37,609 bases of DNA, taken from positions 1 to 37,609 of the IMG/VR virus record IMGVR_UViG_3300037351_000031. One strand, written 5' to 3'. This document shows, piece after piece, positions 6,048-21,664 of the stretch. Origin of the DNA: a virus. Numbering within the stretch: the first letter of the stretch is position 1; each line of letters opens with the position of its first letter. Both the position numbers and the translations under genes were made by a program. A model generated the notes under the pieces. The model had not been told where the DNA came from. It worked only from the letters and a program-made list of their open reading frames with translations, and did no database searches.

Positions 6048-9000
6048 CCACGATTCTCGGGAGCGTGAGTCCCGGGTACGGCAACGACCCGGCGTCGGTG
6101 ATCGCCGGGATGAACCCTGGCGACGTGTGGGACGGCCAGACCGGCACGTACCCGACGGTCGGCCTCGAGTGTCCGAGTGGAATCACGATCCAGGGATCGC
6201 CCATCCTGGTCAGCACCGGCATCGACGTGAACGGGGTGTGTTCGTCGGCCGGGTCCACGTCGTTGACCTACTCGGGAGGGCTGCCGACCTATACCGAACC
6301 GATCACCGGCACGGTACTCCCCTTGACCGTGGGGATGAACGTGGCGGGCGCCGGGATCAGTACTCCGGGCACGTCGACGGTGACCATCCAGTCGATCATC
6401 GGGAACACCGTGAACCTGGTGGCATCGGGCAGCGCCACCATCGTGGGGCTGACGGGATCCACGTCGTACAACTTCAACACCAATGCCGTGCCGATCATCC
6501 AGGCGGTCAACATCCTCGGTACGCCGTCGACACCCATCACCATCGCCGGGTCGCCCACCCTGGTCGGCACCTGGCCGGTCACTACGTTCTTCGCCACGAT
6601 GGTCGGCCAGGCGGGCATCGGGTTGAAGTCGTGCACGAGCGTGTATATCACCGGCAACGTGACCACATGGAACACATGCGGCGATGGCATCACTCTCGGC
6701 AACTCGGCGGGCAACGGCAACTGCTCCGACATCCAGATCACCGGCAGCCTGACCGTCAACAACGCCGGGCGCTACTGCCTCGGGCTGTGCAATGTTGACG
6801 GCCTCAGCTCCTACAACACATGGCAGAACGTGACATGTAACGGCGGGCTGCACGGCATCCTCAGCGACGAGAACGACGAGGGCGCCGAGACATTGGGCAT
6901 GGGCAGCATCACGATCAACATGACCGGCTACCCGCTCGGCAGCACCGGCCTCAACCTCATCAGTGCGCTCACCGGCCCGGTCGTCATCAACGTGCTGCCG
7001 GGTGGCCTCCAGGGCTCGTGCAACCTCAACGACCCGCTCGACATGTACACCGTCACGATCAATCTGAACGGCCACACCTGGACGATGCCGAGCCACCTGG
7101 GCAGCGTTGCCAACTTCAACATGAGCGGCGGAACGGTGATCGTGAATAACGGCGTCTGTGCCCGTTCGAGCGGGACCGTCAACCTGCCCGTGTGGACCCT
7201 GGTGGGTGCTACCCCGACCCCGAACATCACCGCCATCGAGAACGACATTGCGGACTGCACTGTGTTCAATGGAGTGGACCACACCCTGACGTGCACGCTT
7301 GGCACGGTCACAACCATCGCCGCCACGAGTGGGAGTAGTGGCACGACGATGAACGCGGTATCCACGACCGGTGTCTCCATCGGGATGCAAGCCAATGGCC
7401 ACGGCGTGAACGGTGCGAACGTGATAAATGTCACCCCCACCACCGTGACCATCGACAGCGGAAGCTTCACGACCGGGGACGGCTACACATTCGCGAGTAC
7501 GACCCTGACGGCCACCTCGGGCACGTTCTCGGGGACGGACCTGGACCGGACCGTGCTCAATGCGAACATCCCGAGCGATACGCAGATCGCCAGCATCACG
7601 GACTCCACTCATGCGGTGATGACCAATGCCCCGACGACGGGTGGGACCGGGCAGTCGGTGGTGTTGCCCAGTTCGATAGCGGTCAACAACGCTGCGGTCC
7701 CCTACACGACGGTGGGGGGATCGTTCCCGACCACGGCGGTCGGGTCGATCGTTAGCCTGCCCGTGGCGTCGACGTCGAGCTACGACGAGGTGTTCATCAA
7801 CGGCAAGGGCGTGATCGCTGTCCAGACCACGGGCGGAGGCGTGGCCGTCTTCGAGTACACGTCGTCAGCCGGGGGGACGGCCTTCAGCGGCATGTCGCTT
7901 GTCAGCGGATCGGGGAGCATTGCTGCCGGCGCCATGATCGGGTGCCTGGTGAGTGTGGATACCCACTCGCCCACCGGTACGGCCACGTACACCTACCTCA
8001 GTGCCAGCGGGATCCATCCGGCGAGCAGCTACCTCAACCAGGCCACCCTGGTCTCGGGGTCGGGGAGTCTGAGTGGTAGCGGTGACACGTCCGAAATATC
8101 GGTGGCCGGTGTCGAGGTGGGGGCCACGCTCCAGTTGACCAACTTCACCCCGTTGCAACTGACAGGCGGGGAGTCAGTCGACGGCCTGTCTGAGGTGATC
8201 CTTGGATCGAGCACGGGTTACCTGTCGGGGATCCGGGGGATGGGTGCCCGCGGCCAGTTCGCCCGCGGCTACGGAGTCGGCTCCAGCCTCGTCGCCGGGA
8301 GCGCTGGCGGCACAGCATCACTGACCGGAACCGCGGCAGGTGTGGTCGTCCTACCCGGGAGCGGGGCAGGCAGCGCCGCACTCAGCGGGTCAGCGGTAGG
8401 GGTCGTATCGGCGTCGGGCACAGGTACCGGTTCGGCCTCCCTCGTCGGTAGTGCCTCTGGAGCGGTCGTGGTGGGCGGGGTGGCCAGCGGGTCACTCAGC
8501 CTCACCGGAGTGGCCTCGGCCACCCTGAACGTCCCCTCGGTCGGGACTTCGACGGCGACCCTCACCGGCTCGGCCATCGGAGCGGTCTCAATAGTCGCCA
8601 GCGGGTCCGCCGTTGCTTCCATCACCGGGGCGGCGTCGGGCACTATCTCAGTAGACGGGAGCGGTTCGGGGTCAATCGCGTTGTCTGGGGCGGCCACCGC
8701 GGTCGTCTCAGTCCCCGCCAGCGCCGCTGGGACCCTCGGGCTCACCGGACTGGCCGCGGGGAGCGTGAACGGGACACAGGCCGGTTCAGGGGCTTCTACG
8801 GCCACTCTGAGCGGCACGGCTGTGGCCACGGTCGGCCTAGCCGTGTCAGCCAGCGCCGAAGTAGCCCTCTCGGGGTCCGGTGTCGGTCAGGTGGTGCTCA
8901 ACGAGGCGGCCACCGGGCAACTGGCTCTCACCGGCACAGCGGTGGCCACAGTCACCGGTATCCCGGCCGCCCCCGGCACTGTCACCGCTTCGGACTTCTC

Positions 9001-10578: not shown

Positions 10579-10893
10579 ATGAGTGCCACCATGACCGCCA
10601 CTGTCGTCGCGTTCCGGCTGACCCCTGCCCTTTGGCTTGTACTGGACGTTTTCGCCGTCTTCAGGCTGACTCGCTTGGTCACTCGGGACATCATCACCGA
10701 GAAGCCCCGCCAGTGGGTCAAGCGGAACCTGGGGACAGCGGCGTTTGATTTCTGTGAGTGCCCTTGGTGTACCTCGATTTGGCTGGCCATCGGCGTCGTC
10801 CTGCTGACGGTGTTCGCCCCGCACCAGTGGCAGTACGTGGCCTATGTCCTGGTCTGCTCGGCCGTCGCTGGCGTCCTCGCTGAGCGATCCTGA
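10579..10893 (+). CDS. Small membrane protein, DUF1360-like, possible holin partner
   Basis: Two hydrophobic segments are seen: about residues 9-26 (FRLTPALWLVLDVFAVF) and 63-98, the latter possibly two helices. Between them, FRLTRLVTRD and ECPWCTSIWL match the pattern of DUF1360 family proteins (R-L-x-R-L-x-x-x-D, then C-x-x-C-x-x-x-W). Position directly after the endolysin suggests a lysis role, but the family is not an established holin. No Shine-Dalgarno sequence precedes ATG 10579; ATG 10591 and GTG 10570 are alternatives. Its stop overlaps the portal start (TGATG). Confidence 0.65.
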   Translation: MSATMTATVVAFRLTPALWLVLDVFAVFRLTRLVTRDIITEKPRQWVKRNLGTAAFDFCECPWCTSIWLAIGVVLLTVFAPHQWQYVAYVLVCSAVAGVLAERS

Positions 10894-13496
10894 TGGCGGC
10901 CGAACTCAGCGGTCGTAACCGTCGATTCCTTCAGCGGTTGCAGAGGCAGGAGAAGCCGGTCGCTCATCGGGCGTTGACGGCGGCGGCCATGCCCATCAAC
11001 CTGACCAGCAAGACCGAGGCGCGACGGATGCGGGTATTGCGGCAGGGCTGGCAATCGGACGCTTGTAGCTATATAGACGCAATACCAGAACTTTCCTTCG
11101 CCTATCGGTTTCTTGCTCATGCGTCGAGTCGTATGCAGTATTACCCCGCCATTCTCAACCCGGAAGAACCGGATGGACCACCGATTCGGATTGAGGAATA
11201 CCCCGACATTCCTCCAAGCGTGGTCGAGGCAGCCACTCAAGCGATGGCAACGCTTGGCACCGGTCGTCAGGCCATCACTCCCATGCAACAGGCCATGAGT
11301 TATCACTTCGGTGGTCCCGGCGAATGCTTTTTCGTGGGGCAACGAGATCCTGATACGAACCTTCCGGTCTGGACTATCCGCTCCATCGATGAGTTCATGA
11401 TTTTCGATGACACCTACAAACTGCGCGAGGTCCCGCTCGACCCGCAAGGAACGCTCGGGTGGATACCGCTCGACCCGGCGACCACCTATGCCGCTCGCAT
11501 GTGGATTCCCTGGTACCGATATCAGAAGTTGGCTACCAGTCCGATGCGGGCACTCCTCGATGTGAGCGAAGAATTGCTCTTGCTGAGCCGAGACGTTCGG
11601 TCCACGGCGCGTAGCCGATTGGCCGGCGGCGGCATCCTCAAGATTCCCGAGGGCCTGCGCATGGCTCCCATCAACGAGGACGACGACGACCCCGAATCTG
11701 AAGCGTGGTTCGGTCGGTTCGCTGAGGCGATGATGACGCCTATTTCTGATGACGGGGTGGCCAGCGCCGTGGTTCCCATCGGTATCAGCGGCGATCCCGA
11801 ATCACTGGCCCAACTCGACCACCTGATTATCGACCGACCGTATAGCGCCTTGGCTATTGAGCTGCGGGCCGAGGCCATTGGACGTATAGCGACCGGACTG
11901 GACGTTCCTCGAGAAGTGCTGGAGGGAATGAGCGACCCGAACCATTGGGGCGCGTGGCTCGTCAGCGACGACACCTTTCGGCACCACATCGAACCGCAGG
12001 TCATCACGCAGGTCGACGCCATGTCCGCTGCCTACCTACGGACAAGCATGTTGGCAGCTGGTGTTCAACAGTTCTGGGTCGACCGCGCTTGCATCTGGTA
12101 CGACCCGGTCGACCTGATCTCCAAGCCTGACCCGATGGCCAACGCCGTGTTGCTGCACGATCGTTTTGCCATCAGCAACATGGCGCTACGTGAAGCTGGC
12201 GGGTTCAAGGAAAGCGACCAGCCCGGCGCACTCGAAATCGAGTTCCGGATGCTGCAGAAGACCCGCACGTTCCCCCCCAACATGGTCGAGGCCATCTTCC
12301 ACAAGGTCGACCCCGAACTGGCCTTCCCGCCCATCAACACCAGTGGCACTATCCCCGGCATCGGGCCGCAGGGCGAGATTCCCGCCGTTGCTCCAGAACC
12401 GGCAGCGCCCGCACTTCCGGCCAGCCCACCACCGCCCGCAACTCCCGCTCCGGCACTGCCGCCCGATGCGAGCGCCACTCCACCGATGACCGCGCCGACA
12501 GAAGCCTTCGCCACTCCGCAACCGAACCCGACCCACGTCCGCCTGTCCCGCAAACTCACCGAAATCGACAGCCAGCTCCGGGCCCGTATCCAGGTGGCCG
12601 CCTGCGCCGCCATGACCCGGCTACTGGACAAGGCCGGCGCCAAGCTCCGCACCCGGGCCGCCGACCGGAAGTTCAAGGACAGCGAAGTCAAGACCTTGGT
12701 GGCGGGACAGCCCGACAACCGCCTGGTGGCCTCCACCATCGGCCCGGCCCTGGTGGCTTCCCTCGGCTTCACAACCGCTCCTGAGCTACTGAGTGCGGAC
12801 TGGAGCGAACTGAAGGCCCAGTTCATGGCCTGGACCGAGGCGGCCCAGAAACAGGCGCTCCGGGTGGCCATGCAACTGGCCGGCATCACCACCGAGGACG
12901 AGTCGTACCAGGCGGCCGACCTTGCCTTGTCCTCCAGCGTGGCCCCGGCCTGGGAGGTCATGGAGGCCGCGCTCAACGCCCTGGCCGAGAAGGTGCTCTA
13001 CACGCCGGATGGCGACCTGGACCCAGGGGCGGCGTTCGACCCGAACAGCGTGGTGCCGATGGGGGTCGTGCGGAACGCCCTGACCATTGCCGGGGGGACA
13101 CCGCCGCCGGACAACGTGGTCGACGTGTCCCAGCCAGTCGATGTAGGTACAGACCCGGCGGGAGCCATGGTGTCGGTGAACGTGCCCGGCCAGATTGGGA
13201 ACGGGGACGCCATCTCGACTCTGTTGGACGACTCTGGCATGGTCATGGTGTCGCACACCTGGGAACACCTGTCAGGCACGGACCACCCGTTTGAGCCTCA
13301 TCTCGACCTCGACGGTGTGCAGTTCGTGGACTTCGATGATGACGTGCTGGCAAATCCTGGGGACTGGCCGGAAGTCGCATACCTACACCCCGGAGACCAC
13401 GTCGCGTGCGGATGCGATTACTCCACCGTGTGGGGACCTGCGCCGTCGAGTGACGATTCTGGAGAGGACAGCGGCGATTCGGGAGGCGACGAATGA
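10893..13496 (+). CDS. Portal protein fused to a MuF-like minor head domain
   Basis: Residues 1-490 are the portal: SYIDAIPELSFAYRF near the N-terminus and, near 325-360, IGRIATGLDVPREVLEGM followed by NHWGAW, a signature of actinophage portals. A Pro/Ala-rich linker (about 495-545) joins a helical region and a C-terminal domain ending with SHTWEHLSGTDHPF and LHPGDHVACGCDYS, as in SPP1 gp7/MuF minor head proteins. The portal forms the dodecameric DNA gate at one capsid vertex; MuF proteins enter the head during assembly. At 867 aa it is longer than a lone portal (about 450-500). Codon use shifts from AT-richer in the portal to GC-rich from the linker on. Start overlaps the previous stop. Confidence 0.85.
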   Translation: MAAELSGRNRRFLQRLQRQEKPVAHRALTAAAMPINLTSKTEARRMRVLRQGWQSDACSYIDAIPELSFAYRFLAHASSRMQYYPAILNPEEPDGPPIRIEEYPDIPPSVVEAATQAMATLGTGRQAITPMQQAMSYHFGGPGECFFVGQRDPDTNLPVWTIRSIDEFMIFDDTYKLREVPLDPQGTLGWIPLDPATTYAARMWIPWYRYQKLATSPMRALLDVSEELLLLSRDVRSTARSRLAGGGILKIPEGLRMAPINEDDDDPESEAWFGRFAEAMMTPISDDGVASAVVPIGISGDPESLAQLDHLIIDRPYSALAIELRAEAIGRIATGLDVPREVLEGMSDPNHWGAWLVSDDTFRHHIEPQVITQVDAMSAAYLRTSMLAAGVQQFWVDRACIWYDPVDLISKPDPMANAVLLHDRFAISNMALREAGGFKESDQPGALEIEFRMLQKTRTFPPNMVEAIFHKVDPELAFPPINTSGTIPGIGPQGEIPAVAPEPAAPALPASPPPPATPAPALPPDASATPPMTAPTEAFATPQPNPTHVRLSRKLTEIDSQLRARIQVAACAAMTRLLDKAGAKLRTRAADRKFKDSEVKTLVAGQPDNRLVASTIGPALVASLGFTTAPELLSADWSELKAQFMAWTEAAQKQALRVAMQLAGITTEDESYQAADLALSSSVAPAWEVMEAALNALAEKVLYTPDGDLDPGAAFDPNSVVPMGVVRNALTIAGGTPPPDNVVDVSQPVDVGTDPAGAMVSVNVPGQIGNGDAISTLLDDSGMVMVSHTWEHLSGTDHPFEPHLDLDGVQFVDFDDDVLANPGDWPEVAYLHPGDHVACGCDYSTVWGPAPSSDDSGEDSGDSGGDE

Positions 13497-16400
13497 CTAC
13501 CGCGTTCGACACCGGCAACGAAGGTAATCCCGCAGCACTCATCAAGTGGTTCAACGAAGGCGCGGACGGTGCCATCGACTGGGGGCAGCCAGGCGATTTT
13601 GAGCAGTGCGTAGCCGTCGCCAAGAAGCATCTTGATAATCCTGAGGGCTTCTGTAATGAGCGCCATCAGGATGCTGTCGGCGGCCCACCCGGCAGCGAAG
13701 ACAAGAAGACCGTCCGTGACACCGAACCCCAACTAAGGGAGAATGCCCCCATGTCAGATTTGATGACCCGCGATGCCATCATCGCCAGCTTCAACGCCGA
13801 ACAGGAACCGTTGACGGCGGCCGCGGCTCTGAGAGTGCAGTACGAGATGGTGACGCAAGAGGCTCGGATGTACTTGGGTGCCGAGCCGTACTGGGCGGGT
13901 ATCTCTCAGGCTGACAGGGACAAAGCCGCGTCCAGCGGAGCTGCGATGCCCGACGGGTCGTATCCGGTGCTGACCTGCTCGGGTGAGAACAGCGTCGACT
14001 CGGCTATCCATGCTGTCGGGCGCGGCTCGGGTGGGCACAACGCAATTCGGAAACACATCGCGACCAGGGCAAAGAGTCTTGGCTGCAGTTCTAAAATTCC
14101 CGACACTTGGAACGATGATGGCAGCATCAAATCCGACTCCTCCGCCGAAGCCACCACGGCCAGTACCGCGCTGGCGACTCCTCCTCCGCCTCCACCGGCG
14201 GCTCCGGTGGCCAAGGCTCCGCCAGCACCAGGGGCACCCCCCGAGAAGCCCGCGCCCGATGCCAAGACCCCACCCAAGGCCGGCGAGGGTTCGGTAGCCG
14301 ACGCCGAGGTCGACGCCGGCATGTCCGTCCACGTCGACACAGTGAACAAGGACATCGCCGCGGCCATCGCCCTGCAGAAGACCGACCCGGGCACGGACAG
14401 CGAGGCGGCCGACACCAAGGTCATGACGATTCTGGAGCAGATGCAGGCGCTGGGGAAGCAGCTCGCCGCCGCCCAGGACGCCGATGCCAGCGAGAACCCG
14501 CCGTCGAAGTCTGCGCCAGCTCCGCCCAAGACGCCACCTGCCGCCGACGCCCCACCTGCCAACGGGCCACCTGCTTCTGACCCGCCGCCGGTCATGGCCG
14601 AGGGCGCGGCTGGGGCCAGTTGCGACTGTGGGGCCGTGGGATGCACCAGCCAGCCTGGGTGCCCGGCCTGCGCCGACCATGTCTGCGCCTGCAGCACCAT
14701 GACCGCCGCTGGACCTCCGACGAGCTCGGAGACCCCAGGGAACGCCGTGGGCATCCCCAACGACGCCGACGACAACGGTCCTGGGCCCGGCGACATCGAA
14801 GCCGACGTCATCTGCATGAACCCCGACTGCGGGCACATGGCCGGGGTGCACCAGGACGACGCCGACCTGGGTGGCAACTCTGGGGCCTGCCAGACCCCGG
14901 GCTGCACCTGCCCGGGAATGATCCCCCCAGGTGACCAGGTGAACGGGCCAGACGACGACACGGTGGGTGGTGACGGAAATGGCGGCGGACCGAACAACGC
15001 CGGAGGGGACGACGACACGTCCACTGGGCCACCAAAGATGGCCGCTGACTTCGCTCCAGGGGACCCGCCGCCAATCGGTGGGGACGGACCGACCGCCCCT
15101 CCAGAGGCTCCAGACGCCCCTGAAGTCGAAGGTGCGCCCGCTCCCGCCCTACCCCCACTGGACCCGAACCCGTCCATCACCGTGGGGCCGGCCTTCACCA
15201 TTCCCGTGGCCTGGATTGAGGGTGTGGAGACCGGGGACGGCCGGATGATTCAGCCCGGTGCCCTGACCTGGCGTACGCCCCCGCTGCCCCTCATGGCCAT
15301 GGTCACCAGTTCGCACGACCCGAGCGGCATGTCCCCCAACGACCCTGCCGTCCTGGTCGGGCGCATCGAGCAGATCAGCGTGGAAGGGACAAACGGGACG
15401 GCCAGCGGTCATCTGTTGACCACCAAGCACGGCATGGACTTCGCCCAGGTTCTCGAGCAGATGGGCCGTTACGGGGTGTCCATCGACGTGGGCGACGCCG
15501 AAATCCAGCAGACCGGGGTGCCGGACATCATGCTCCCGCCCGGCGCCAGCCAGTTCGACGCCCCCATCCTCGACGTGCTGGTCAAGGGCGTCGTGATGGC
15601 TATGACCGCCTGCCCGATGGCCGCGTTCCAGGGGGCCTACATGGTCCTGGGTGACGGGTCCAACATCCCCGACGCCAAGGTGCCTCCTGCTCCCGAAGGC
15701 TCGAACATGGCCATCCACTACGTGGACGAGATCCCCTGTGTGCCCTGCGGCGATGACTCGCTGGTGGCCGCGGCCGTCGACAAGCCCTCGCTCCTACGCC
15801 CGCCCGGCGCCTGGTTCGGCAACCCCAACTTCGGCAAGGACGCCGATGGCAAGGAAATCGCCCCTCACCTCGACGACCGGCTGAGCGAGACCATCGACCC
15901 CAAGTCAGGCCGACTGTCGGGCAAGTTCGCCTGCCCCATCACCATCACCGACGACGGCGAGGTCTTCGGCCACATCGCCCAGCACGGCGTGTGCCACCAG
16001 TCCCCGCAGTTCCTCAACAACGGCCAGTGCGTGATGGCCCCTCGGAGCCTGGTCGACTACGCCGCCTTCCACGGCACGGGCAAGGTCATCACCGCCGAAG
16101 GGGAGATGATTGGGGTGGGCCGGATGACGGCCGACACCGGGCACGCCTCGGACTCCCCGGCCGTCGACTTCCGCCGGGCCCTCGCCCATTACGACAACTC
16201 GGGCCTGACCGCGGCCACGGTGCGAGCTGGCGAGGACGAGTTCGGTATCTGGGTCCACGGCTCGCTCCACCCGAGTACCAGTCCCGAGCAGGTCCACACC
16301 ATGCGGGTCAACCCGCCGTCGGGCGACTGGCGACCCTTCGGGGCTGGGCGTGAGCTCTGCCAGGTCCTGTTTGTCAACCACCCCGGGTTCCCGATGGTGG

Positions 16401-16588
16401 TGGCCGACAAGCGGCCCGCTACTGGCGAAATCACCCGACTGGTGGCCGCTGGCGTGCCCTGCTTCTCCCTGCCCGAGCCGGTGGCACTGTCGCTGGAGGA
16501 GCGGGTGGCCATGATGGAGCGGGCCAACAAGCCGCTGCTGGGCCTGGCCAAGGAGCAACTGCGGTCCCGTCGTGCGAAGATTGGCTGA
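13493..16588 (+). CDS. Capsid maturation protease with N-terminal accessory and Cys/His domains
   Basis: The protease lies at about 560-740: TSSHDPSG with His608 and YGVSIDVGD with Ser663 are probable catalytic residues, and IEGVETGDGRMI is the usual strand start of actinophage head proteases. A long C-terminal extension resembles other actinophage versions. N-terminal modules are: DFEQCVAVAKKHLDNPEGFC (27-46) followed by RHQDAVG; a helical SAIHAVGRGSGGHNAIRKHI domain near 166-200, seen in many phage head proteins; Pro-rich linkers; a Cys cluster at 377-402; and a C-x4-C-G-H-x4-H-x12-C-x4-C-x-C motif at 441-473. It probably processes the scaffold part of the capsid protein. ATGA overlap with portal; a strong internal start lies at 13751. 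Confidence 0.8.
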   Translation: MTTAFDTGNEGNPAALIKWFNEGADGAIDWGQPGDFEQCVAVAKKHLDNPEGFCNERHQDAVGGPPGSEDKKTVRDTEPQLRENAPMSDLMTRDAIIASFNAEQEPLTAAAALRVQYEMVTQEARMYLGAEPYWAGISQADRDKAASSGAAMPDGSYPVLTCSGENSVDSAIHAVGRGSGGHNAIRKHIATRAKSLGCSSKIPDTWNDDGSIKSDSSAEATTASTALATPPPPPPAAPVAKAPPAPGAPPEKPAPDAKTPPKAGEGSVADAEVDAGMSVHVDTVNKDIAAAIALQKTDPGTDSEAADTKVMTILEQMQALGKQLAAAQDADASENPPSKSAPAPPKTPPAADAPPANGPPASDPPPVMAEGAAGASCDCGAVGCTSQPGCPACADHVCACSTMTAAGPPTSSETPGNAVGIPNDADDNGPGPGDIEADVICMNPDCGHMAGVHQDDADLGGNSGACQTPGCTCPGMIPPGDQVNGPDDDTVGGDGNGGGPNNAGGDDDTSTGPPKMAADFAPGDPPPIGGDGPTAPPEAPDAPEVEGAPAPALPPLDPNPSITVGPAFTIPVAWIEGVETGDGRMIQPGALTWRTPPLPLMAMVTSSHDPSGMSPNDPAVLVGRIEQISVEGTNGTASGHLLTTKHGMDFAQVLEQMGRYGVSIDVGDAEIQQTGVPDIMLPPGASQFDAPILDVLVKGVVMAMTACPMAAFQGAYMVLGDGSNIPDAKVPPAPEGSNMAIHYVDEIPCVPCGDDSLVAAAVDKPSLLRPPGAWFGNPNFGKDADGKEIAPHLDDRLSETIDPKSGRLSGKFACPITITDDGEVFGHIAQHGVCHQSPQFLNNGQCVMAPRSLVDYAAFHGTGKVITAEGEMIGVGRMTADTGHASDSPAVDFRRALAHYDNSGLTAATVRAGEDEFGIWVHGSLHPSTSPEQVHTMRVNPPSGDWRPFGAGRELCQVLFVNHPGFPMVVADKRPATGEITRLVAAGVPCFSLPEPVALSLEERVAMMERANKPLLGLAKEQLRSRRAKIG
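13735..13753 (+). promoter_or_regulatory. Strong internal ribosome binding site and start in the protease gene
   Basis: AAGGGAGA is followed after 8 nt by an in-frame ATG at 13751. Translation here would give a 945-aa form lacking the first 86 residues, exactly the module containing DFEQC and RHQDAVG. The G-run at 13737-13739 can pair with the C-run at 13746-13750, directly before the ATG. Confidence 0.5.
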
Positions 16589-16656
16589 TGGAACTGGAGG
16601 AGTGGAAGCACCCTGACCGTCGAACCGATGGCACCAGCCAGTTTGTGTTGACGTGA
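16588..16656 (+). CDS. 22-aa peptide, uncertain
   Basis: The ATG overlaps the protease stop (TGATG). The product MELEEWKHPDRRTDGTSQFV plus two residues ends at a TGA. The good overlap and coding-like composition support translation, but 22 residues is near the limit. A perfect 5-bp hairpin (CCGCT/AGCGG, 16658-16670) follows the stop. Confidence 0.35.
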   Translation: MELEEWKHPDRRTDGTSQFVLT

Positions 16657-16669
16657 GCCGCTGACAGCG

Positions 16670-16867
16670 GTGGGACGACGGCGCCGGTTGCCCGTCCCTC
16701 TCTGCGGTTGGTCAACGGCTGGTGAGCCTCCCGACATGCGACCCTGGTGGGTAGGGGCCGAACAACCGCCGTCAGCGCCTCCGATGCCCAAGCGATGCCC
16801 GGTGTGCGGGGGCCGGATGATTGACGACTTCTGCTCGGCGTGCGATGCCGCGGCTAGGGGGTCCTAG
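16670..16867 (+). CDS. Small zinc-ribbon-like protein, up to 65 aa
   Basis: The C-terminal half has CPVCGGRMIDDFCSACDAA, a C-x2-C-x8-C-x2-C arrangement typical of a zinc ribbon. The N-terminal 20 residues are Arg-rich and may not be translated; the ATG at 16736 (43 aa) is an alternative to the GTG at 16670. No good ribosome binding site is seen for either. The stop overlaps the stop of the convergent minus-strand gene by 4 bases, so no terminator fits between them. Function unknown. Confidence 0.5.
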   Translation: MGRRRRLPVPLCGWSTAGEPPDMRPWWVGAEQPPSAPPMPKRCPVCGGRMIDDFCSACDAAARGS

Positions 16868-17256
16868 AAATTGCAGTTGCACCACTGGTGAGCGCCGCAC
16901 TTCGGGCATGGGTAACAGGCAGCGCAGAGACCGAGCATGAACGGGTGCTCAGGGTTGTGATGTCGCCACAGCCGCCATCCCTGGGCCTTGTGGCACTGCC
17001 ACCACCAGTCGGGCTTCCAGAGGAAGTAGGGCCGCATGTGATAGCCGAACTTGAACAGACCCATGCGCTTCAGGTCCCACCGAAGGCGGTAGGGCAGGAC
17101 ATCACGCCACCGCGGGAGTTTGTAGACCGCCGGCCCGCCGCCGCTCCAACTGACCGAGCCACCGCAGCTGGTGATGCCCGAGACGTACAGGAACGAGGCG
17201 ACCCGGCCTGTCAGACTCCACCGTGAGTAGTGCCAGCGGGGCGGGGAGTCAGTCAT
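16864..17256 (-). CDS. Trp- and Cys-rich protein, 130 aa, last gene of the minus-strand cassette
   Basis: The ATG at 17256 was chosen because it overlaps the stop of the terminase-like gene by 8 bases (ATGACTGA). The same frame is open further upstream, but inside the neighbouring gene. The protein is rich in Trp, Arg and Tyr (for example KPDWWWQCHKAQGWRLWRHH) and ends with six Cys in LCAACYPCPKCGAHQWCNC, which probably bind zinc. The basic, aromatic surface suggests nucleic-acid contact. Coupling to the ATPase-like gene suggests a joint function. No family is recognised with certainty. Confidence 0.65.
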   Translation of the reverse strand: MTDSPPRWHYSRWSLTGRVASFLYVSGITSCGGSVSWSGGGPAVYKLPRWRDVLPYRLRWDLKRMGLFKFGYHMRPYFLWKPDWWWQCHKAQGWRLWRHHNPEHPFMLGLCAACYPCPKCGAHQWCNCNF

Positions 17257-17860
17257 CGGGCCTCCCGAGTTTTCTGTTGCGAAGTCGCCGGGCCAGGGTT
17301 CGATACTCCGGTCCATCCTCAATCAGAGCGGCGATCAAGTTGGTGTTGACATCGGCTCCGACCTCAGTCACGGCGATGCGGTCATCGAACCGTGCGGCGC
17401 GGGTTACAGCTCCAGCCCACCGCGCTGGCCCGGCTCTAAGTCCGAATACTGCCTGACTCATTAAGATTTTCCGGTCATTCCATCCGTCGAGATCGTCGTA
17501 GATATCACAGCATCGGGCCATTGACCCTCGAAGACGATCTGATGTTCCTTTGCCAGTCTCAAACAACTGAGCCGTAGAGCCATCGGGCCATTTGATCCAT
17601 CGGTACCTAGCTGTTGAGTTGTAACCACTCTCTATCTCTGGATTGAACGCCAGCAGACGCCTAACCGTGGAATCTTCTGGAGCGAAGATACCCATACGGT
17701 GCGGCTCTTCTCCGTCGAAGCAACGTAGTCCATAGGCGTGAGCGTTCATCCAAGCGATCAGTGCATCAGTTCGCCCGCTTCCCCGATCGCCGACGATGAG
17801 CCATCCTCGCCACTTGTCGTCCGGCGGCGGAATCTGATGCGGCATCGGTTCCCAGGTCAT
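17249..17860 (-). CDS. Terminase-large-subunit-like ATPase domain without nuclease, 203 aa
   Basis: The protein follows the ATPase half of phage TerL along its whole length. WRGWLIVGDRGSGRT (17-31) matches the TerL P-loop, but Arg30 replaces the Lys expected in G-x4-G-K-T. Further on come a strand with APEDSTVRR, a WPDGSTAQLF strand, DRLRG (108-112), and CCDIYDDLDGW (117-127) at the Walker B position, with Asp-Asp in place of Asp-Glu. TNLIAALIEDGPEYRTL matches the segment that ends the TerL ATPase domain. The RNase-H-like nuclease half is absent and no remnant follows. It therefore looks like a stand-alone, probably altered, ATPase paralogue rather than the packaging motor. A good ribosome binding site (AAAGGAT) and ATGA overlap with the 21-aa peptide define the start. 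Confidence 0.7.
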   Translation of the reverse strand: MTWEPMPHQIPPPDDKWRGWLIVGDRGSGRTDALIAWMNAHAYGLRCFDGEEPHRMGIFAPEDSTVRRLLAFNPEIESGYNSTARYRWIKWPDGSTAQLFETGKGTSDRLRGSMARCCDIYDDLDGWNDRKILMSQAVFGLRAGPARWAGAVTRAARFDDRIAVTEVGADVNTNLIAALIEDGPEYRTLARRLRNRKLGRPDD

Positions 17861-17922
17861 GAGTTTTTATCCTTTGGTCGGTTCTCGGTGGGCGGGTTCC
17901 CGTCGGTGAAGCGTTCAAACAT
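17857..17922 (-). CDS. 21-aa leader peptide before the terminase-like gene
   Basis: The ATG at 17922 follows a very strong AAAGGGAG site, better than those of the larger cassette genes. The 21 codons encode a hydrophilic peptide ending in RPKDKNS, and its TGA overlaps the next ATG (ATGA). The downstream ribosome binding site AAAGGAT lies inside this reading frame. It could be a small protein or a translational leader controlling the ATPase-like gene. Confidence 0.5.
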   Translation of the reverse strand: MFERFTDGNPPTENRPKDKNS

Positions 17923-17937
17923 GGGGATTCTCCCTTT
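17923..17937 (-). promoter_or_regulatory. Ribosome binding site with pairing G-run and C-run
   Basis: On the minus strand AAAGGGAGAATCCCC stands immediately before the ATG of the 21-aa peptide. It nearly repeats the sequence before the internal protease start at 13735-13750. The GGG can pair with the CCCC across a short A/T-rich loop. Confidence 0.5.
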
Positions 17938-17942
17938 CTCGG

Positions 17943-18626
17943 TTACAGCCGATCCCACTTCACCACGTCGTACCGGCCGTATCCCATCTTGCGGGCGGCT
18001 CCGATACCTTCACGCTCCCCCGTGGTCCAGATGGTTGCCCATTCCTCCTCGGAGAACTCCCAATCGGTCTCAACCGTGAAGTCGACTTTGGCATCCTCCA
18101 CGTAGTCCGTGTACTGGATGGCGCTGATGGGACCCTTCGGGGTGACCTTGGCGATGAACGATTGATTTGTCCCGGTCGGCTCCGACACACCGAGATAGAG
18201 CCGGTCCTCAACAATGAAGATGTGTTCAGCTAGCCAGGAGAGGATGCCTCGGTTGGCGCTGTGAAGTCCCCATCCGCCCTTCTTCAATCGACCAGACGCC
18301 ACGGCGATGTTGGCAGCCTCTCGAAGCCCAGCCTTAAGTTGGAACCCGCCGATGTAGAGACCGGTCTCGTCTCGGCGGAATCCGATGTGGCCCTTTTCGC
18401 CGCTGAGTTTTTCAATGGCCTCATCAACGGTCAGCCCGTGTTCAGCCATGGCCTCCACGACCTGGTCGCGGATGATGTCATCGGGTGCCTGCGTCTTGCG
18501 CTCCAGATGGCCCTTCAGGACGTTTGGGTCGACGGGTACTCCTCCAGCGATGTTGTGGAAGTGAAGCGTGCCAGCGAACCGATAGGGCCAGTTCTTCTCC
18601 TGATACTTGCTGAATACGGATGTCAT
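17943..18626 (-). CDS. RAMP/Cas7-like phage protein, 227 aa
   Basis: Three features recall the RAMP superfamily (Cas7/Csm3/Csf2 types). A first strand is followed by a Gly loop (WPYRFAGTLHF then AGGVPVDP, 13-34). GLYIGGFQLKAGLREAAN (89-106) is close to the Y-I-P-G-S-S-L-K-G-x-L-R motif. The C-terminus GIGAARKMGYGRY (207-219) has the spacing of the Gly-rich loop G-x-G-x-x-R-x-x-G-x-G. The protein appears to belong to a family seen in actinophages without known function; the RAMP link is inference from motifs. No catalytic His is obvious. The start has AAAGGAAA upstream. It lies between the G-skewed stretch and the peptide/ATPase pair. Confidence 0.65.
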   Translation of the reverse strand: MTSVFSKYQEKNWPYRFAGTLHFHNIAGGVPVDPNVLKGHLERKTQAPDDIIRDQVVEAMAEHGLTVDEAIEKLSGEKGHIGFRRDETGLYIGGFQLKAGLREAANIAVASGRLKKGGWGLHSANRGILSWLAEHIFIVEDRLYLGVSEPTGTNQSFIAKVTPKGPISAIQYTDYVEDAKVDFTVETDWEFSEEEWATIWTTGEREGIGAARKMGYGRYDVVKWDRL

Positions 18627-18650
18627 CGGTGGTGGTTTCCTTTCGGGTAG

Positions 18651-19070
18651 TCAAGTGAGGCGGAATGGGGTGTTTTGGGGGGTGCAGCGTTGGGTTGTCG
18701 GGAGAGGCGCGGTGAGAAGGGACGTGGGGAGACGCGCTGGGCGAGCGGCGAAGCGGTGTCGGATGCGTTGTGTGAGCCGAGCCAGGTGGCGTTGGGTCGT
18801 CGAACGGGATGAGCGGGAACGGGCAGTGCTGCGGGGATCTGAGGAGCGCCGTCGGACGGGGCGTGGAGTCCGGGGCCGGGTTGGGAGACAGAGCGGGGGG
18901 CTGTCGAGGGGAATGGATGGTTTTGTGCCGTGACGGCGCGCGGTGAGGAGCGTTGTCGGATGAATGGGGACGTGCTGAGAAGGCGCGTGCTGAGAAGTGG
19001 CGCGGGGCAATGGGTAGTCGATTGCGGAGACCCGGGTGGAGCAGGGCGTGATGTGGGGCGCTGTCAGTTG
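18651..19070. other. G-skewed stretch without a convincing gene
   Basis: The + strand is strongly G-rich and C-poor: in 18841-18900 I count 35 G against 12 C. Several frames are open on both strands because T/A-containing stop codons are rare, but the products are low-complexity (Pro/His/Ser/Arg on the minus strand, Arg/Gly on the plus). G-runs at 18872-18900 can form a quadruplex on the + strand, which is the template for the cassette. CGTGCTGAGAAG occurs in tandem at 18971 and 18986. A minus-strand frame (18478-19074) starts with an ATGA overlap to the gene before it, but it overlaps the RAMP-like gene by 149 bases and is not accepted here. Confidence 0.5.
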
Positions 19071-19661
19071 TCATGCGGTTCGTCCGGCCGCCTTACGGGT
19101 GATGCTGTCAAGAAGTCGCTCGCATTCCTCTTCGGTCATCACGTCGGCAGTCCGACGCTTGCCGACCTTCTTGGCCAGTGTCCGATGAAACGCTTCTCGC
19201 ATGAGATCCGCTTCGGCACTCGCCCGGTAGGTATCGGCCACGAACCCGTGATCGGCTCCGGTCATATCGGCTAGACGACGCCGGACATTTTCCTCATTGA
19301 CTGCGTGCCAGGTCGCATACAGACCGATTGGGCTGTCTTCTCCGGCTTCCAGGGCTGCCTCAAAGCGAGCGGTTCCGGCCCGACTCATGGCCTTCCCGCG
19401 ACCCGCCCGCATCAGGTCGCCTATCTCCCGAGTCATCAGATGAACGGCCTGATCGGTGAACCACTGTTCAAGGCAACCAGGATGTCGAGCGTTCAACTTC
19501 GCCACGATTCGCTGTGCCGCTTCGGCTGGCGTTACCTCATTTCCAGCCAATTCCTTGTCGATCAGTTCTCGAATGATTTCGCCAGGCATGGGGTCGCTCA
19601 TATCGTAAACGTTAGCGCGTTTCCACTGAGGGTGCTTGATTTCCCAGTTTGGGCAGGTCAC
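19071..19661 (-). CDS. Helical phage protein of unknown function, first gene of the cassette
   Basis: The protein is almost wholly alpha-helical and charged. Its second half, DMTGADHGFVADTYRASAEA and then KKVGKRRTADVMTEEE, follows a pattern common in actinophage proteins: a D-M-T segment, a long helix with A-x-x-x-L repeats, and a closing V-x-T-x-x-D-V-M/L. The function of that family is unknown to me. The start is uncertain: GTG 19661 gives 196 aa and adds a Trp-rich lead; ATG 19601 gives 176 aa and a cleaner N-terminus (MSDPMPGEII), but neither has a strong ribosome binding site. It is divergent from the capsid gene, with 107 bp between. Confidence 0.6.
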   Translation of the reverse strand: MTCPNWEIKHPQWKRANVYDMSDPMPGEIIRELIDKELAGNEVTPAEAAQRIVAKLNARHPGCLEQWFTDQAVHLMTREIGDLMRAGRGKAMSRAGTARFEAALEAGEDSPIGLYATWHAVNEENVRRRLADMTGADHGFVADTYRASAEADLMREAFHRTLAKKVGKRRTADVMTEEECERLLDSITRKAAGRTA

Positions 19662-19715
19662 ACTTCTGCCAGGTGAGTTCTGGCCTTGGAGCCAAGCCCA
19701 CCGATGATTTCAGGT

Positions 19716-19756
19716 CTTAGCGCCTGGTCGCCCTAACAGGTACCCCACGCGCTAAG
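19716..19756 (+). repeat. Inverted repeat covering the capsid ribosome binding site
   Basis: CTTAGCG at 19716-19722 pairs with CGCTAAG at 19750-19756, and CCTG (19723-19726) with CAGG (19737-19740) inside. The right arm includes the first bases of the Shine-Dalgarno sequence TAAGGAG (19753-19759) for the capsid gene ATG at 19769. The structure could mask that site, or mark a regulatory point between the divergent cassette and the capsid operon. Confidence 0.45.
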
Positions 19757-19768
19757 GAGCCGAAATCA

Positions 19769-21664
19769 ATGGACCGCATTCAGGAACTACTGGAGCGTCT
19801 CGCAGACCTCTCCGACGAGGAACTGACCGAGCTGAACGGTCTTCTCGCTGAGGCCTACACGGCCATCGACTCGTCCGACGAGCCGGCCACGGCAGAGCAA
19901 ATCTCCCAGATGAACACCCTCGTCGAGGGTCTGGAGACCGTGGCCGCCGAGAACACCCGGCGCACCGAACTGGCGACCCAGCGGGAGCAGCAGAGGGCCG
20001 AACTGAAGACCCGGGCCGATGCCCTGCTCAACCCACCTGAAGAGGGCGAGACCCCGCCCGAGGATGCCCCGACCGACGAGGCCCCGGCGGAGGACGAGGA
20101 ACTGGACGAGGACGGCAAGCCGAAGAAGAAGGTGACCGCCGAGACCCCCCCGGCCGCTGACGAGACCCCGACCGAGGCTCCGGCAGACAGCCCGCTCATT
20201 CCGGTGAACGCCAGCACGGAACCCCCACGGGGCGACCCCGCTGCCGGTGATGGCATGGTCGAGCGCATGGCGGCCGTGAACGGCCCGGCCAAGCCGAGTC
20301 CGACACAGAATCAGACCGAGACGTTCGGGACCACGCTGGTTGCCGCCGGCGGTCTGCGGGGCATCGGCATCAACACCCCGTTCGAGGACCGCTTGCAACT
20401 CGGTCAGGTCATGGCAGATCAGATCGACGCCTTGGGCCAGCCTCACGGTGAGTATCACCACCCAGCGCTGATTGCCACCGCTCGGTGGGAGTACCCCGAG
20501 GACCGGCGCCTTACCGGCGACGCCAACGCCAACTCGGAGAAATTCAACGCCATCTGCGCCATCGAAGCGCAGCGAGTGGACCCCAAGGACACCACGGCGC
20601 TTGTTGCAACCGGAGGCGTGTGCTTGCCGGTCAATGTGGATTACGCCGTGCCTACGTGGTCGACCGCCGACCGGCCTCTGCGTGACGCGCTTCCGAGTTT
20701 CCAGGCTGACCGAGGTGGTCTCCGTTACGTGGCGCCGCCGGACATCGGCGTCCCCCCGTTGCAGGGCACCGCATCCGGTGCCGGTCTCTCCACCAACACC
20801 TGGACCGAGGCCACCGACGCCAACCCCGCAGGAGCAACCAAGCCCGTGTGGGAAGTGACCTGCGGCACGGAGAACCTGGTCTACGTCAATGCCATCACCA
20901 CGAGGGTCCAGTTCGGCAACATGCAGAGCCGGTTCGCCCCCGAGCAGGTGGCCGCAAACACGCAGCAGGCCATCGCCGTCTCCGCCCGCCAGGCCGAGCT
21001 CGAACTGCTCACCCTCATGTTGAGCGTCAGCTTCTGCAAGGAGGTCAGCATCGGCACCCAGTACCTCGGCGCACTCCGCGATGTCCTGTCGGCCGTCGAT
21101 CTGCTCAAGTCCCAGTACTGCGACTCGCACCGGATTCCCGAGTCGGCCTCGTTCACGGCCATCTTCCCGCAATGGGCCAAGAACATGTTCAAGGCCGACC
21201 TCCTGCGTGAGACCGCCCACGACAACGCCGGCCCCCGAGACGTGCTGGCCGTGACCGACGCCCAGATCGAGGAGCTCTTCAGCGTCCGCGGGGTGAACGT
21301 CATCTGGACTTTGGAGGGTGTCAAGAGTGGCACCTACGGCAACGTGACCGTGGGGGCCAGCCAGCAGTTCTCCGTGTTCACCACGGGCAACACGCCCCAG
21401 TGGCCTGGTCAGGCATCCAGCGCCGCGTTCGAGTTGCTCTGGCTGCTCTACGTGGAGGGGACCTACCAGTTCCTCGACTCCGGTCGGCTCGACCTCGGCG
21501 TGGTGCGGGACAGCATCCTGGACAGCACTAACGATTACGAGACCTTTGTCGAGACCTTCGAGGGAATCGCCGGTCGAGGCATCGACGCCTACGGCGTGGT
21601 CCAGACCCTGCTCCCGAGCGGTGGTTCGGCAGGAACCGTCGCAGTCGGCTCCTACAAGGAGTAG
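19769..21664 (+). CDS. Major capsid protein, HK97 fold, with fused N-terminal scaffold domain
   Basis: Residues 1-165 form a scaffold-like delta domain: a helical start (MDRIQELLERLADLSDEELT) and an acidic, Pro-rich segment (85-155). The capsid domain follows: CLPVNVDYAVPTWSTADRPL, SFQADRGGLRYV, a long helix with QAIAVSARQAELELL, and SASFTAIFPQWAKNMFKADL are typical of actinophage HK97-fold capsid proteins. At 631 aa it is long because of the delta domain, which the upstream protease probably removes. The start follows TAAGGAG. The antisense frame is an open shadow caused by GC-rich codon use. Confidence 0.9.
   Translation: MDRIQELLERLADLSDEELTELNGLLAEAYTAIDSSDEPATAEQISQMNTLVEGLETVAAENTRRTELATQREQQRAELKTRADALLNPPEEGETPPEDAPTDEAPAEDEELDEDGKPKKKVTAETPPAADETPTEAPADSPLIPVNASTEPPRGDPAAGDGMVERMAAVNGPAKPSPTQNQTETFGTTLVAAGGLRGIGINTPFEDRLQLGQVMADQIDALGQPHGEYHHPALIATARWEYPEDRRLTGDANANSEKFNAICAIEAQRVDPKDTTALVATGGVCLPVNVDYAVPTWSTADRPLRDALPSFQADRGGLRYVAPPDIGVPPLQGTASGAGLSTNTWTEATDANPAGATKPVWEVTCGTENLVYVNAITTRVQFGNMQSRFAPEQVAANTQQAIAVSARQAELELLTLMLSVSFCKEVSIGTQYLGALRDVLSAVDLLKSQYCDSHRIPESASFTAIFPQWAKNMFKADLLRETAHDNAGPRDVLAVTDAQIEELFSVRGVNVIWTLEGVKSGTYGNVTVGASQQFSVFTTGNTPQWPGQASSAAFELLWLLYVEGTYQFLDSGRLDLGVVRDSILDSTNDYETFVETFEGIAGRGIDAYGVVQTLLPSGGSAGTVAVGSYKE

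Follow-up and report, generated by a model that had tools for sequence, protein, structure and literature searches.

The window analysed here is a 37.6-kb virus record (IMG/VR record IMGVR_UViG_3300037351_000031, positions 1 to 37,609), an actinophage sequence in which a minus-strand cassette of four larger genes lies between the protease and major capsid genes. Part of this cassette, consisting of a small gene (g1), a non-coding pentanucleotide array and a RAMP protein gene, is very probably an RNA-guided system of the VIPR type, carried as exchangeable accessory cargo. VIPR (Viral Interference Programmable Repeat), reported in a preprint of 2026 (PMC13142463), allows phages to silence DNA by means of guide RNAs. 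Its components are a phage RAMP protein (Vipr), an accessory gene (vap) and vrRNAs, each with 9-16 YNNGG repeats, in which the NN dinucleotide pairs with DNA and one nucleotide, usually a codon wobble base, is skipped (PMC13142463). The initial annotation of the window had proposed that all four genes form an undescribed accessory system; the cassette is indeed accessory, but a system of this kind has already been reported as VIPR (PMC13142463). The conserved core is the g1 and RAMP pair with the array between them, and its parts are as follows.

19071-19601, minus strand: g1, candidate vap, 176 aa (196 aa from GTG 19661); profile homologues adjoin the RAMP gene
18650-19066, minus strand: candidate vrRNA (guide) array, about eight tracts of 7-12 pentanucleotides; the in-phase count beats 2000 of 2000 shuffles
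17943-18626, minus strand: vipr-like RAMP protein, 227 aa; the predicted fold matches Csm3/Cas7, with a C-terminal glycine-rich loop, GIGAARKMGYG

The array occupies the 444-bp gap between g1 and the RAMP gene. Here, on the minus strand, pentanucleotide tracts (window consensus NNYNC) restart in phase after each YGAC, with YGAC starts at 19066, 19020, 18958, 18906, 18854, 18802, 18761, 18700 and 18653. One such tract reads CGAC AACGC TCCTC ACCGC GCGCC GTCAC GGCAC AAAAC CATCC ATTCC CCT CGAC. Fifty units with C at position 5 are found in unbroken post-anchor runs, compared with a mean of 5 and a maximum of 19 in shuffled sequence, and none of 2000 shuffles reaches 50. The skewed non-coding stretch pointed out in the initial annotation is therefore far from chance and, as a candidate guide-RNA array, is the key part of the locus. 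By simple Fourier power of C at period 5 the array cannot be told from shuffled sequence, 309 of 2000 shuffles scoring as high, because the phase resets at each YGAC, which blinds this test and leaves the anchored statistic alone able to discriminate. In the window, neighbouring anchors often lie 47, 52 or 62 nt apart (5n+2) because the last unit of a tract has four bases.

Single-sequence searches with the RAMP protein returned no relative from viral contigs and one from Microcystis phage Mae-JY09. Profiles built from that relative retrieved 12 loci and then 80, kept out of 99 found in viral contigs, and also match two genomes, an Actinomadura and a Streptacidiphilus. A g1 homologue, detected with a g1 profile, adjoins the RAMP gene in 66 of 86 loci, and 9 of the other 20 are cut by a contig edge. 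Some g1 homologues match PHROG 4604 (function unknown), and g1 is best regarded as a candidate vap accessory protein, a class whose named members are vap1-6. The copy in Actinomadura sp. KC216 has one in-frame TGA within the match to the RAMP gene region.

C-rich pentanucleotide arrays, with at least two anchored runs each, flank the RAMP gene in 75 of the 86 loci. Anchored runs of at least 6 units on the RAMP strand occur at 2.16 per kb near the RAMP gene versus 0.043 per kb far from it, and near the gene 804 anchored runs are on the same strand versus 46 on the opposite strand. Across 3677 units, positions 1 and 2 have entropies of 1.99 and 1.98 bits, positions 3-4 show a clade-dependent bias, and position 5 is C in 94%. 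In the relatives the anchor spacings peak at 28, 33, 38, 43 and 48 (5n+3), as if GAC had been inserted into a continuous repeat. The arrays are hypervariable: all 961 of 961 guides are distinct, and Vipr proteins that are 92-95% identical have no guide 20-mer in common. Two loci (L100 and L111) have very large arrays, which extend across about 2 kb upstream of the RAMP gene, with 57 guides in L100 by one count. In L085 the strongest period-5 signal proved to be a tandem-repeat coding stretch and not an array.

The initial annotation, which had suggested structure prediction of single proteins, described one product of the cassette as RAMP-like, and modelling agrees. The AlphaFold2 model has a mean predicted confidence (pLDDT) of 77.5 with 10 sequences and 84.2 with 70, and it aligns to Csm3 with a Z of 11.7 over 153-160 residues (VIA-align), which points to a Csm3/Cas7-like fold. 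An earlier model matched type VII Cas7 and Csm3 in the PDB (Foldseek, E from 4e-7), and a viral structure library gave three significant matches, one of which is labelled as a Cas system-associated RAMP superfamily protein. Conservation of the C-terminal G-x-G-A-x-R...G loop is nearly complete, and G207, G209, R212 and G217 are invariant in 70 homologues.

The code of the guides can be approached without any known target. Among guides that recur in different phages, 11 pairs agree at 20 or more of 24 positions, and shuffles yield none. By a hand count of pairs that are not all independent, the differences fall at positions 3-4 in 25 of 132 cases versus 5 of 132 at positions 1-2, which indicates that positions 1-2 are the informative ones. 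Seven guides were decoded by the VIPR rule (unit dinucleotides plus a 1-nt skip, with the reversed pattern as control) and compared with large databases. Targets emerged for two of them, both recurrent guides of relatives, and these match genes exactly by this 2+1 rule.

The first, guide X1, is present in three loci (L053, L054 and L060) and decodes to TGNANNACNANNTGNCCNAGNTCNTG. In genomes of the order to which the Actinomadura host belongs, the 1-nt skip gives about 98 sites in 88 of 201 genomes, versus 8 for the reversed control; a 0-nt or 2-nt skip gives none in 41 genomes where the 1-nt skip has 17. All eight of the sites fetched are in frame on HELGHLV[ML]H, antisense to the guide. This is the HExxH motif of proteins with helix-turn-helix (HTH) and Peptidase_M78 domains (5 of 5 scanned), and 2 of 2 scanned match RmrA in PADLOC. 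In RosmerTA defence systems, ImmA-type RmrA acts as the antitoxin (PMC10440598), but ImmA proteins have a further role as regulators of prophages and conjugative elements (PMC12637031).

The second, guide X2 (L051 and L053), has seven sites in 61 genomes and none in the control. Four of the six fetched are in frame on [VI]ERGHNI of PprDinG (PADLOC E 1e-146 to 1e-162), the helicase of the pPIWI_RE defence island (PMC3702460), and all three of the regions examined hold PprRE, PprDinG and PprPIWI genes and so are complete pPIWI_RE islands. The skipped bases of both X1 and X2 targets fall on codon wobble positions. A short recurrent guide, X4, had three local matches that were not convincing. An all-against-all comparison of 249 guides in 1.9 Mb of phage DNA, with skips of 0-3, gave no excess over shuffled guides, this database being too small.

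For the window's own guides, the matches retrieved were judged to be chance. In viral contigs, an exact scan gave four matches for W3, in AT-richer unrelated viruses and including one duplicate site, and none for W4, while W2 had a single match, in a phage of GC 0.55 that looks enterobacterial. In actinobacterial genomes, W3 had no match within 2 mismatches, W5 had one at 2 mismatches, W4 three at 2 and W7 four at 3.

That the locus is exchangeable cargo is evident from its surroundings. The flanking virion genes (PHROGs) are a portal gene at 10893, a protease fusion at 13493-16588 and a major capsid gene at 19769-21664, and the insert between the last two is on the minus strand, opposing the late operon, as the initial annotation had it (open reading frames (ORFs) 19661/19601-19071, 18626-17943, 17860-17249 and 17256-16864). 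The capsid protein has matches of about 35% to Gordonia, Mycobacterium and other actinophages. A full-length terminase large subunit (TerL) was not recognised among the window proteins scanned, and the record is probably a fragment. The remaining features of the cassette are as follows.

19602-19768, minus strand: upstream/promoter region, nearly identical in phage L003 up to the g1 ATG; holds GCGCTAA copies
17857-17922, minus strand: 21-aa leader ORF, overlapping the ATPase start by ATGA; outside the conserved unit
17249-17860, minus strand: TerL-like ATPase, 203 aa, no nuclease; tblastn to TerL N-termini; absent from L003
16864-17256, minus strand: Cys-rich Zn-ribbon-like protein (Zn gene), 130 aa, 97% identical in L003; resident gene of the site

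L003 is a near-identical phage whose capsid protein is 98% identical to that of the window. It keeps the cassette upstream region and the Zn gene, and lacks g1, the array, the RAMP gene and the ATPase. Between the upstream region and the Zn gene it has only about 150 bp with one short ORF (about 47 codons, minus strand, 6200-6370), in the slot that in the window holds the missing parts. The switch points between the two phages are the g1 start codon and the Zn-gene ribosome-binding site. Among capsid relatives with both genes (29 loci), the distance between protease and capsid genes varies from 94 to 4762 bp, and the intervening contents, on either strand, are unrelated. Together with L003, this size range and these contents identify the site as a cargo slot, so that the four genes need not be one system. 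Other insertions at this slot are seen in L019 (7236-7853), L023 (2887-7650) and L016 (4964-7992) and include, judged by eye, an HNH-endonuclease-like gene or structural-protein-like genes.

Base composition is consistent with the lower GC content that the initial annotation had remarked on. The cassette has a GC of 0.603 versus 0.674 for the protease and 0.661 for the capsid gene, and third-position GC (GC3) is 0.61 in g1, 0.73 in the RAMP gene and 0.57 in the ATPase, the lowest in the cassette, compared with 0.81-0.84 in protease and capsid. The claim holds for the cassette overall and for these three genes, but not for the Zn gene, which at 0.83 is like its neighbours. The coupling of the 3'-terminal frames that had been described is also present in the sequence, with the leader joined to the ATPase by ATGA and the ATPase sharing 8 bp with the Zn gene (17249-17256).

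The terminase-like ATPase without nuclease that had been described is likewise confirmed: tblastn matches it to the N-termini of TerL proteins (E 3e-10 to 1e-3), and its residues 3-145 align with TerL of Streptomyces phage mu1/6 (33%, E 2e-9). The likeness covers the N-terminal ATPase domain, whereas the C-terminal nuclease domain of TerL is missing from this 203-aa protein, which L003 lacks altogether. Its Walker A motif is GDRGSGRT, with Arg where Lys is usual, and the ATPase may be inactive. No relatives of it were found in viral contigs. Neither the ATPase nor the Zn gene has a homologue linked to the RAMP loci, except for a full-length TerL in L068 and L069. The ATPase and leader are extra cargo, and the Zn gene is a resident of the site. 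None of the cassette proteins receives a name from Pfam or PHROGs.

The most likely start of g1 is ATG 19601 rather than GTG 19661, because 19602-19661 is upstream DNA common to L003, which has no g1. No sigma-70-type promoter match was found in the upstream region. Three of the four window copies of GCGCTAA are within 19612-19768, the third of them in the cassette promoter region, and an inverted repeat, GATTTC..CTTAGCGC / GCGCTAAG..GAAATC, lies directly before the capsid gene in the same interval. These sites are possibly a shared regulatory site of divergent transcripts.

Several observations weigh against assigning the locus to VIPR. Instead of the published GGY/NN, the repeats have a C-rich consensus, which is NNYNC in the window and NNnYC in its relatives, and three of the eight window tracts lose phase part-way. 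VIPR of the SUSP1 clade is described as having an invariable structured 3' tail (PMC13142463), and none was found here: there are only short YGAC separators, folding z-scores are -0.28 to 0.62, and there is no Rfam match of note. The SUSP1 Vipr aligns collinearly but weakly with the RAMP family (hhalign E 0.0065 and 0.011), and a weak match to PDB chain 36pp_D (E 0.75) was not recovered with a larger profile. Finally, the window guides have no target above chance in viral contigs or actinobacterial genomes.

If the locus does function as VIPR, a single transcript that starts in the promoter region also present in L003 would give g1, about eight guide RNAs and the RAMP protein. By analogy with the published system, the RNA would be processed to guides, each a pentanucleotide run, and several RAMP subunits would coat one guide to form a ribonucleoprotein (PMC13142463). 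Within each pentanucleotide, positions 1-2 would pair with double-stranded DNA and the protein would hold the remaining three, with a skip of one target base, and the bound complex would block transcription of the matching gene (PMC13142463). The targets would be genes of competing elements or host anti-phage defences. Because the guides of relatives match bacterial anti-phage defence genes, the locus is probably a programmable gene-silencing weapon.

VIPR was described for inter-phage warfare (PMC13142463), and the initial annotation had named exclusion of other phages as one possible role. Inter-phage conflict was a good guess, but the targets decoded in relatives are defence genes, which suggests counter-defence beside, or instead of, warfare between phages. 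The choice between the two cannot yet be decided because defence genes also ride on mobile elements. It is possible, if somewhat doubtful, that VIPR in this actinophage clade serves counter-defence, with guides chosen against conserved anti-phage motifs (the pPIWI_RE helicase and the RosmerTA-type HTH-ImmA antitoxin), skips placed at wobble bases and one guide silencing a whole defence family, the window array being of the same kind in a virion-operon slot.

Other explanations start from the fold or from the position of the cassette. A Cas7/Csm3-like fold in a phage protein without nearby cas genes is what might be seen if the RAMP protein were an anti-CRISPR, a solitary Cas7 mimic that sabotages host CRISPR-Cas, with the C-rich stretch as an incidental spacer or decoy. 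Such mimics of Cas proteins are known from phages. However, a hypervariable same-strand array at 75 of 86 loci and in-frame targets with a 1-nt skip are unexpected of a decoy, and this account is very unlikely. The least probable alternative is that a phage captured a CRISPR-Cas remnant or relative, such as a type III or VII backbone with a degenerate array. The RAMP fold is closest to Csm3 and type VII Cas7, but 16500-20000 lacks CRISPR-like direct repeats, PADLOC recognises none of the cassette proteins, there is only one RAMP gene, and the guides have a 5-nt period and are read with skips rather than as contiguous spacers.

The initial annotation had also raised control of packaging or capsid assembly, in which the four genes would be one system and the TerL-like ATPase a decoy or regulator of the packaging motor. 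The protease-capsid position, the ATPase itself and the coupled 3' frames would fit such a role. However, in other phages g1 and RAMP form a linked pair to which neither the ATPase nor the Zn gene belongs, and L003 has the Zn gene and does without the other three; the varied protease-capsid gap is that of a cargo site. Nothing supports this role, whose probability is slighter than that of the Cas7 mimic.

VIPR was reported from a few clades in 2026, and an independent reading of the bare sequence has now arrived at a system of this kind in soil actinophages. Its repeat alphabet is different, its arrays are large, with distinct guides in the hundreds, and its natural guides lend themselves to decoding without experiment. 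With two decoded guides on highly conserved anti-phage motifs and skips at wobble bases, resistance to synonymous escape and RNA-guided silencing of host immunity become concrete, testable ideas. The protease-capsid junction is also revealed as a cargo slot.

In comparison with known systems, the RAMP protein is like Csm3 and type VII Cas7 in its RRM-like RAMP fold over about 150-170 residues (Z up to 11.7) and its C-terminal G-rich loop. Its sequence identity to them is about 10-17%, however, and the locus has a single RAMP gene with neither a CRISPR array nor partner cas genes. The locus looks like a compact ancestral relative of CRISPR. It shares with VIPR a single small phage RAMP protein, an adjacent small accessory gene, the absence of cas1/cas2 and CRISPR repeats, and same-strand intergenic tandem pentanucleotide arrays with a hypervariable dinucleotide and long repeat runs per guide. 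For the relatives' guides it also shares 1-nt-skip decoding with the skip at wobble bases. In the SUSP1 locus, used as a positive control, runs of YNNGG lie on the same strand as vipr. According to the preprint, VIPR comprises seven types, the others using "a related consensus" and staggered arrays (PMC13142463), and on this analysis the C-rich locus may be one of the seven. Unlike VIPR of the SUSP1 type, it has a C-rich repeat instead of YNNGG, its guides are arranged head to tail, parted by GAC/YGAC and without a structured tail, it sits inside the late operon between protease and capsid, and two decoded guides of its relatives match anti-phage defence genes.

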